Source: an uncultured Bacilli bacterium (GTDB taxonomy: Bacteria > Bacillota_I > Bacilli_A > RFN20 > CAG-449). Taken from it: a DNA stretch of 47,796 nt. The position numbers and the translations under genes are program-made. Shown in pieces: positions 8,777 through 11,632 of the stretch. Where the stretch lies: positions 1-47,796 of the forward strand of contig CANRPC010000011.1 in the NCBI GenBank assembly GCA_947632435.1, read 5' to 3'. The first letter of the stretch is position 1, and each line of letters begins with the position of its first letter. Below the pieces are notes generated by a model that was not told the origin of the DNA, did not search any database, and saw only the letters and a list, made by a program, of their open reading frames with translations.

Positions 8777-8799
8777 GTAAAAATTAGGAGTTGTTAAAA

Positions 8800-10296
8800 A
8801 TGACAATTGAGTTGTATTTTCGTTTAGCTTCGATATTTGAAAAACATGGTTTTGATTTGTATTTAGTTGGTGGAAGTGTAAGAGATTATCTTCTTAATAA
8901 AGAATTTAATGATATGGATTTATCTACAAATGCAACTTTAGATCAAATACAAACATTTTTAAAATTTAAGACAATGTATCAAGAATTTCAATCTGGTGTT
9001 TTCGTATTTGAAAATGAGGAAATAGATATCACTACTTTAAGAAAAGAGGAAAAGTATCAAGATTTTCGTCATCCAGAAAAAATTATTTTTGTTAAATCAC
9101 CTAAAGAAGAAGTACTAAGAAGAGATTTTACAATTAATGGATTATATATTAATTCTAAAGGTGAGATTCTTGATTATGTAAACGGAAAAGAAGATTTAAA
9201 AAATCATTTAATAAGAATGATTGAAGATCCTTTAATTAGATTAGAAGAAGATCCATTAAGAATTTTAAGAGCTTTAAGATTTGCTTTTAATTTATCATTT
9301 AAAATAGAAAATAATTTAAAAAAAGCCATTTTAATAAAAAAATCATTATTAAAAAAATTAAATTATAAAAAAATCATAGATGAATTAAATAAATTTAATG
9401 GTAAGCCAAAAGAAGTTCGAAAATTTTTATATGAATATAACATTGAAAAAGTAATTCCTCTTTTTTATGAATATAAAGCAAAATTAATTTTAGATTTAAA
9501 TTGTAATGTTATAACTAAAATTTATGATAATAAAAAAGATTTAGTTAGAAATAAATATACATTTGATTTGAATAAAATGCAAAAAGGGTCTTATTTTGGG
9601 CAAGTATTTACAGTTTCAGTTGACATAAATAAAAACGATAAATTTTCTTATATAAAAAATGTTATAAATTATTATCATAAATTAATTAAAGAAAATAATT
9701 TTTTTATTGAAGAAATATATAATTATGAAGACCTTTTAAGAATTAAAAAAAATGATAAAAGGGCTGCAATTTTGGCTATAGAAGAAAATGGTATGATAAA
9801 TAATGATATTTCTTTAATAGATGAATTATTCTTTCTTGGAGTAAGAATAATAAAATTTAAAGATGAAAACTTTAATTGTTTATTTAAAACAGGAGAAGGT
9901 TTAACCGATTTTGGAAAAAAAGTTATTAATAAAATGAATGAACTTAATATGATTATTGACATTTTTTCTACAAATATAAAAAATATTGAAGATGTTTTAA
10001 AATATTCATTAAAACCAATATGTTTATCTTATGCATCAAATATATTAAATCTTGATAATGTATCAAATTTATTATTAAAAATTTATGAAAATAATAGTTT
10101 AGTAAAAATTAATTCTATTGAAGATTTATTAAAATTAAAAGAATTATTAACTATATCTTGTTTAGCATTAGAAAATCTTGATACTAATAACAACTTTCTA
10201 AAAAACTTAAGCAACAACTTATCAAAAATAGACTTAAATAAAATTTGTTATTTAAATTTTTTTGATTTGTTTAAAAAAAATCAAAATGCTGTATGA
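8800..10296 (+). CDS. cca: CCA-adding tRNA nucleotidyltransferase fused to a degenerate M19 dipeptidase-like domain
   Basis: The 498-residue protein begins as a class II CCA-adding enzyme: LVGGSVRD at 22-29, catalytic aspartates in NDMDLS (D38, D40), RRDFTINGL at 107-115 and EEDPLRILRALRFAF at 149-163. These form the head and neck that add or repair the tRNA 3' CCA. After about residue 225 the usual body/tail helices are replaced by a segment that follows the membrane (renal) dipeptidase fold, peptidase M19: a DxHxD-like site at 231-236 (DLNCNV), RAAILAIEENG, LFFLGVRIIKF, GEGLTDFGKKVINKMNELNM and KPICLSYASN at 405-414. The metal ligands look lost (HxD reads NCN, the later His sites read IFS and SYAS), so peptidase activity is unlikely. 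The start is the ATG at 8800, 9 bases after TAGGAG; a TTG at 8791 is less likely. Confidence 0.9.
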   Translation: MTIELYFRLASIFEKHGFDLYLVGGSVRDYLLNKEFNDMDLSTNATLDQIQTFLKFKTMYQEFQSGVFVFENEEIDITTLRKEEKYQDFRHPEKIIFVKSPKEEVLRRDFTINGLYINSKGEILDYVNGKEDLKNHLIRMIEDPLIRLEEDPLRILRALRFAFNLSFKIENNLKKAILIKKSLLKKLNYKKIIDELNKFNGKPKEVRKFLYEYNIEKVIPLFYEYKAKLILDLNCNVITKIYDNKKDLVRNKYTFDLNKMQKGSYFGQVFTVSVDINKNDKFSYIKNVINYYHKLIKENNFFIEEIYNYEDLLRIKKNDKRAAILAIEENGMINNDISLIDELFFLGVRIIKFKDENFNCLFKTGEGLTDFGKKVINKMNELNMIIDIFSTNIKNIEDVLKYSLKPICLSYASNILNLDNVSNLLLKIYENNSLVKINSIEDLLKLKELLTISCLALENLDTNNNFLKNLSNNLSKIDLNKICYLNFFDLFKKNQNAV

Positions 10297-10336: not shown

Positions 10337-10990
10337 ATGGATACGCTTAAAATTCAATATTTAGATTATCGTTATTTATTAGTGGAAAATTATAAAAATT
10401 TAGGTTTAAATGAACAAGAACTTGTAGTTTTACTTTTAATTGATAATGTTGAAAAAGAAAAACCAACGCTTGTGACTTCCGATCAACTTGCTCTTAAAAT
10501 GGCGATAGATGAAAAAGAAATTGATAAAATTCTTGTTTCTTTATTAGAAAGAAAATTTTTAAGTTATATTACTTTAAATGATATTATGGTTTTATCAATT
10601 CAAAATACAAAAGAAAGAATTATAGAATTAATTAAACGTGATCTTTTACTTTCTCCTTCTTCTGATTTATTAAAAAATAAAGAAGAAGAATTAACAAAGA
10701 TATATAAATGTTTTGAAGAAAAAATGAAAAGAACTCTTACATCAATAGAATTTGATGCGATACATTCTTGGTTACAAGATGGGGTTAAAGAAGAACTTAT
10801 TCTTGAAGCTTTAAATGAATGCGCTTTAAATAATAAGTATGTTACTATCAAAGCTGTAGATAAATTAATTATTAAAAAACTTACTAGTAATGATAGAAAA
10901 AAAGAAGGATATAGTATCGTCGATGAACATAATAAAAAAGATATAGATGAAATGATTGAAATCGCTTCATATGATTGGATGCATGATTAA
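10337..10990 (+). CDS. dnaD: DnaD-like primosome protein
   Basis: The 217-residue protein has a DnaD N-terminal winged-helix domain (about 1-100, with LNEQELVVLLLIDN) and a C-terminal DnaB_2/DDBH2 helical domain (about 115-185) ending in the SWLQDGVKEELILEAL motif. DnaD loads replicative helicase at origins and restart sites with DnaB and DnaI in Bacilli. It is followed directly by nth, the Bacillus gene order, which supports the assignment. Confidence 0.88.
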   Translation: MDTLKIQYLDYRYLLVENYKNLGLNEQELVVLLLIDNVEKEKPTLVTSDQLALKMAIDEKEIDKILVSLLERKFLSYITLNDIMVLSIQNTKERIIELIKRDLLLSPSSDLLKNKEEELTKIYKCFEEKMKRTLTSIEFDAIHSWLQDGVKEELILEALNECALNNKYVTIKAVDKLIIKKLTSNDRKKEGYSIVDEHNKKDIDEMIEIASYDWMHD

Positions 10991-11632
10991 ATGGATAAAA
11001 AAATAATTAATATATGTAATTATTTAGATAATATTTTACCCAATGCAAAATGTGAATTAATTTATCATAATGATTTTGAACTTCTTATCGCAGTAATTCT
11101 TTCTGCTCAAACAACAGATAAAAAAGTAAATACTGTTACACCAATATTATTTAAAAATTACCCTAATCCTCAAGAACTTGCCAAAGCTAAGCAAAAAGAT
11201 GTTGAACAAATTATTAAAATATTAGGCCTTTATAAAAATAAAGCAAAAAATATTATTTCTTGTGCAGAAGAATTAGTAAGTAAATATGATAGTAAAGTAC
11301 CGTCTAATTTTGATTCTTTAATATCTTTAAGTGGTGTAGGGTTAAAAACTGCAAATGTTGTTTTAGGAGAACTTTTTAATTATCCAGTTATTGGAGTTGA
11401 TACACATGTAGAAAGAGTTGCTAAAAGATTAAATTTGGCAAGAACAAATGATAAGCCTTATGAAGTAGAAAAGAAATTAGAGAATAAAATTCCACCTCAA
11501 AATCGTGTCAAATTCCATCATCAAATGATTCATTTTGGTAGATATTATTGTTTAGCTAGAAATCCAAAATGTGCAAATTGTGAATTAAAAACTCAATGTA
11601 AATATTATCAAAAAATTAATAAGTTGAAATAA
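10991..11632 (+). CDS. nth: Endonuclease III
   Basis: The 213-residue base-excision glycosylase/AP lyase has the helix-hairpin-helix LSGVGLKTANVVLGE with the catalytic Lys, the GVDTHVERVAKRL stretch with the catalytic Asp, and a C-terminal 4Fe-4S cluster signature C-x6-C-x2-C-x5-C (CLARNPKCANC then C). It removes oxidised pyrimidines from DNA. It starts at the base after the dnaD stop codon and overlaps the 3' end of the convergent ponA by 17 bases. Confidence 0.96.
   Translation: MDKKIINICNYLDNILPNAKCELIYHNDFELLIAVILSAQTTDKKVNTVTPILFKNYPNPQELAKAKQKDVEQIIKILGLYKNKAKNIISCAEELVSKYDSKVPSNFDSLISLSGVGLKTANVVLGELFNYPVIGVDTHVERVAKRLNLARTNDKPYEVEKKLENKIPPQNRVKFHHQMIHFGRYYCLARNPKCANCELKTQCKYYQKINKLK

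Follow-up and report, generated by a model that had tools for sequence, protein, structure and literature searches.

The window analysed here, a stretch of 47,796 nucleotides from an uncultured Bacilli bacterium (GenBank assembly GCA_947632435.1, contig CANRPC010000011.1), harbors on its forward strand an open reading frame of 498 codons that starts with an ATG at 8800 and whose stop finishes at 10296; a TTG at 8791 is an alternative start, adding three residues. In the encoded protein, the head and neck of a class II CCA-adding enzyme continue in frame into a Peptidase_M19 barrel. The nucleotidyltransferase head (residues 1-139, 8800..9216), with its catalytic motifs intact, matches PF01743 at residues 20-139 (E 1.8e-31). 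It is followed by the neck (residues 140-200, 9217..9399, boundary drawn by eye), by a linker lying outside both Pfam matches and modelled as a helix (203-211) and then coil (residues 201-227, 9400..9480), and by a degenerate barrel (residues 228-452, 9481..10155) that matches PF01244 (Peptidase_M19) with an E-value of 2.8e-28 and 99 bits against a cut-off of 26. The barrel end (residues 453-498 and stop, 10156..10296) is shortened by deletions relative to both sister proteins and has lost the GSDFDG (DFDG) loop. Downstream on the same strand (10337..11632) stand two genes that we take to be DnaD-like and endonuclease III (Nth)-like, found in the same order 3' of the CCA gene in most relatives.

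The head motifs GG..RD, DxD and RRDFT are all present, both in alignments and in the PF01743 match, and residues G24, G25, R28, D29, D38/D40, R107, R108, D109 and N113 are invariant across fusions and short homologues. The same holds for E150, D151, R154 and R157 of the neck, which carries the nucleotide-selecting EDxxR motif as EDPLR (150-154), and for R81, E83, Y86, D88 and R90 of the flexible loop, to which H91 and P92 are added among the aligned fusions. When solved structures were searched by phmmer, residues 13-210 aligned with CCA-adding enzymes at an E-value near 1e-33 (the alignment to 1miv and 6ibp reaching about residue 210), and residues from about 228 to 454 aligned separately with dipeptidases. 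The class II head and neck motifs reported in an earlier note on this DNA are thus borne out by the PF01743 match and the invariant residues. An A-adding or CC-adding enzyme, or a poly(A) polymerase relative, would also share the PF01743 head, PcnB models do score the protein at 138 bits, and loss of the C-terminal part could change specificity. However, the best NCBIfam model is that of a CCA tRNA nucleotidyltransferase (NF009814, 202 bits, under its cut-off of 290; for comparison, 203 bits for the short homologue L017 and 312 for the full-length L180), the protein is the sole PF01743 protein found in its genome, and it possesses the flexible loop, which bacterial CC-adding enzymes lack (PMC7014341). 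We therefore consider such a different specificity unlikely.

According to Pfam (no match to PF12627 or PF13735) and to the structure model, the window protein lacks the helical body and tail with which such enzymes bind the acceptor and T arms of tRNA, and an M19 barrel stands in their place. This open reading frame is the only PF01743 gene and the only PF01244 gene detected in the genome, where a search for another CCA enzyme or for an M19 gene on its own found neither. AlphaFold2, run with a 14-sequence alignment, predicted the whole protein with a mean pLDDT of 89.8 and a pTM of 0.85, residues 228-498 forming a barrel, and gave similar values for the sister protein L033, whose M19 ligands are complete (90.0 and 0.87). 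For a chain of two domains, a pTM this high suggests that their arrangement is fixed. In a Foldseek search with the window model, CCA enzymes rank first through the head and neck and M19 dipeptidases come next (3lu2, E 4e-13, TM 0.75 by target length; 1itq; 3id7). Structure prediction of the C-terminal part had been set beforehand as a check, and it matched solved M19 dipeptidases rather than body and tail helices; profile, model and Foldseek thus agree with the earlier assignment of this part to the M19 dipeptidases.

The metal site of this barrel is largely gone. With ligand roles assigned after renal dipeptidase, the HxD site has become NCN (residues 234-236, 9499..9507), so that positions 232, 234 and 236 read DNN in the window and DHD in all 12 aligned relatives, with H234 and D236 both replaced by N. 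The first metal histidine of the aligned relatives is replaced by serine (H390S, 9967..9969) and the second by tyrosine (H411Y, 10030..10032), whereas the equivalent of the bridging glutamate (E328, 9781..9783) is kept in 13 of 13 aligned sequences. The replacement of metal-binding His and Asp residues, already proposed from the sequence, is hence confirmed for four of five ligands, to which the loss of the DFDG loop must be added; the complete dinuclear site (HxD, E, H, H) and the DFDG aspartate are present in the 12 other aligned fusions. Judged by its residues, the barrel is dead as an M19 enzyme, and only in the window lineage, and dipeptide hydrolysis by the window protein would not be expected.

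Homologues with the same architecture, which the earlier note had suggested looking for, were found in 14 other genomes of the window's family (genera g1, g3 and g4), as fusions of 543-563 aa free of any frameshift. All M19 ligand residues are present in the 12 of them that are in alignment A1, and L012 and L014 also read as intact, making the catalytic ligand set complete in 14 of the 15 fusions. Every M19 found in the family is a fused copy, no free-standing one being found there, and when 395 genomes were sampled evenly across the class, no fusion outside this family (f1) stood among the matches listed. A merging of two neighbouring genes by misassembly or frameshift, conceivable in a draft genome of 42 contigs, was ruled out, since 14 further genomes share this in-frame fusion; five of the loci lie on named public contigs (scan of genome contigs), and no free-standing M19 was found in the family. 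The fusion is thus neither chance nor artefact, the latter having a practically negligible probability. Since 14 relatives combine the fusion with intact ligands, the dipeptidase was probably active when it was fused, and its activity was later lost only in the window lineage.

Genus g2 of the same family encodes a CCA-type enzyme of 325-328 aa with an extra C-terminal part of about 110 aa (L113:5123-6106, L114:4186-5169, L115:5040-6014), and no M19 gene was detected in its genomes. When this extra part was compared with M19 by hhalign, the score was 22.1, shuffled queries reaching 20.9 at the 95th percentile and 22.6 at most; BLAST and HMMER revealed no clear M19 remnant there, short resemblances not being collinear. 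A tree of DnaD and Nth grouped g1, g2 and g3 apart from g4, with weak support (0.78).

Short enzymes are widespread in the order. Outside the window's family, 39 genomes of the order gave a match, and the CCA frame measured 203-266 aa in 28 of them, at least 362 aa in 10, and was fragmented in one; the frames listed outside the order, in the same even sampling of the class, are mostly of about 360-460 aa. Similarly, a contig scan disclosed dozens of CCA-type enzymes of 197-252 aa in metagenome-assembled genomes, mostly followed by a DnaD-like gene. Among the enzymes scanned with Pfam, no short one had PF13735 or reached the PF12627 threshold, whereas four full-length ones had both. Head-and-neck enzymes with a length of about 200-250 aa (L038-L055, L057-L062 and others from the contig scan, and also those of genomes G018-G057) usually have DnaD-like and Nth-like genes downstream. 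Frames of intermediate length, longer than head and neck and shorter than full length (298-303 aa), were seen in G092, G097 and G098 (L179, L173 and L171), and G059, G060, G065 and G066 harbor a short frame together with one of 430-469 aa, the long enzyme having possibly been acquired beside the short one. Since most of the order has only head and neck and no replacement domain, tail loss probably came first and needed no substitute; body and tail would thus have been lost before the fusion. These minimal enzymes may be of greater importance than the fusion itself.

The body and tail are regarded as the half of class II CCA enzymes that binds tRNA (PMC3925840, PMC8563995) and recognize the acceptor and T helices of tRNA (PMC3925840); in genomes with encoded CCA, the enzyme has a repair and maintenance function (PMC7014341). 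The seven tRNA genes of the window encode CCA, as had been noticed before, and direct reading showed the same for every one of the 41 tRNA genes detected genome-wide, in agreement with the repair role proposed at that time and pointing to a repair-only function. The order was surveyed with a T-arm-plus-CCA pattern over 279 genomes, most of which gave about 20-40 matches; G041, G052, G067 and G065 gave only 3, 3, 3 and 4, respectively. The first three encode CCA enzymes of 440-445 aa with PF12627, PF13735 and HD domains, and 5 of the 30 tRNAs read from them had an encoded CCA, while G065 (69% complete) presents a short CCA copy and a frame of 430 aa. A full-length HD-type enzyme alongside tRNA genes mostly devoid of encoded CCA is thus found at L165, L177 and L180 (genomes G067, G052 and G041, respectively). 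In the order, the four genomes found to be poor in encoded CCA belong to two genera and each have a full-length enzyme, which also occurs in some genomes with encoded CCA. Encoded CCA is likely the reason for the short enzymes of the order, and the link, drawn from those four genomes of two genera and uncorrected for kinship, is a strong lead.

The barrel has changed faster than the head in the window lineage. For head and neck, the window protein is 52% identical to each of two sisters, which share 58.5% with each other, with no clear acceleration; the M19 core is 50% identical between window and sisters and 74% between the sisters, and is therefore accelerated in the window. About ten window-specific indels preserve the reading frame (the alignment is uncertain near the C-terminus), and the window copy has a deletion of 28 aa as well as further ones. 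Such figures could denote a barrel in neutral or near-neutral decay, in which a dispensable dipeptidase lost its site and what is left has no role any more and is disappearing; the loss of four of five ligands, the indels and deletions and the drop in core identity all fit this explanation, the short enzymes of the order show that the head can do without a barrel, and genus g2 lives without any detected M19. However, there is no stop codon over about 270 codons, whereas neutral simulations on a 203-codon stretch of the sisters' barrels, mutated to a similar identity loss, gave a mean of 4-6 stops and none in at most 1.5% of runs (P at most 0.015); moreover, the indels are in frame and the structure model is highly confident in the barrel. 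We thus regard decay as a serious but somewhat unlikely explanation. The absence of stops and the in-frame indels point to retention of a folded product under relaxed constraint on catalysis, and the window lineage has probably retained the dead barrel as an appendage that still folds; from the lack of stops and the predicted fold, it would probably serve as a scaffold.

The earlier note had proposed that the retired barrel took over the role of the tail, holding or positioning the tRNA or dimerising the enzyme. The barrel does occupy the position of body and tail, the pTM of the window and sister models (0.85-0.87) would agree with a fixed arrangement, and M19 dipeptidases are commonly dimers. 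This proposal is not supported: most of the order lacks body and tail and has no replacement, the ligands were kept in 14 of 15 fusions, and no gain of tRNA-binding positive charge was seen in the dead barrel, whose net charge (+4) falls within the range of intact relatives (-6 to +6, one intact sister having +6) and thus gives no sign of a new RNA-binding surface. A substitute for the tail is accordingly quite improbable, and for the present role of the barrel a folded scaffold ranks before decay and decay before tail substitution, although in the window species the barrel may be structural or dimerising.

The reading we lean to, and find moderately probable, is that of a repair-only head and neck enzyme to which an M19 domain was fused at the vacated C-terminus, the dipeptidase site being lost later and the barrel kept as a scaffold. 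The tRNA genes would first have encoded CCA, leaving the enzyme to repair only frayed 3' ends; the relaxed demand would then have allowed the loss of the tRNA-gripping body and tail in most of the order; an M19 gene would next have been joined in frame behind the neck in the family ancestor, giving a protein with two complete sets of active-site motifs. The order of these three steps, the enzyme activities and the present role of the barrel we infer, whereas the domains, the state of their motifs, their distribution, the encoded CCA and the faster change of the barrel come from computation. Finally, the window species would have lost the dipeptidase site, its barrel being still translated, predicted to fold and probably serving as a rigid scaffold or stabiliser of the repair core. 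In this reading the window protein is the cell's only detected tRNA nucleotidyltransferase. The wider proposition, namely that encoded CCA made body- and tail-less enzymes possible in most of an order of uncultured gut Bacilli, that one family placed its sole M19 on the vacant C-terminus, creating an enzyme with two activities, and that in the window species the dipeptidase died and was kept structurally, is put forward tentatively, with slightly less than an even chance.

Many genomes seem to do without the half of class II CCA enzymes that binds tRNA, apparently those with encoded CCA. This makes a minimal repair enzyme directly testable and offers a test, set up by nature, of how small a part of a tRNA-mending enzyme suffices. 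The series formed by enzymes with no M19, with a complete-site M19 and with a dead-site M19 asks in turn whether a dead enzyme is kept structurally or is decaying. The earlier note knew of no described fusion of a CCA enzyme with M19, and indeed neither such a fusion nor naturally body- and tail-less class II enzymes were found described in the open-access literature searched, most subscription journals being outside its scope; the single paper that came up for the fusion deals with pcnB.

Compared with known systems, the window protein is, by its sequence, a variant drawn from two known families that keeps a CCA-enzyme core without body and tail and an M19 fold without its metal site. It shares head, neck, motifs and flexible loop with the class II CCA enzymes of B. 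stearothermophilus (1miv) and P. halocryophilus (6ibp/6qxn), but has an M19 barrel after the neck, and NF009814 covers little beyond its head and neck. Short enzymes such as L017, L038 and L041, from the same order, resemble it in head and neck (36-53% identity) and usually in downstream genes, but end after the neck. With the M19 dipeptidases Lmo2462 (3lu2), human DPEP1 (1itq) and that of S. coelicolor (3id7), it shares PF01244 and the fold, although its barrel is shortened, stripped of most metal ligands and placed behind a nucleotidyltransferase. The closest counterparts are the CCA-M19 fusions of its relatives (L033-L037; L002-L015), which present the same architecture and downstream genes and are 35-47% identical to it, but are longer and retain complete M19 ligands.
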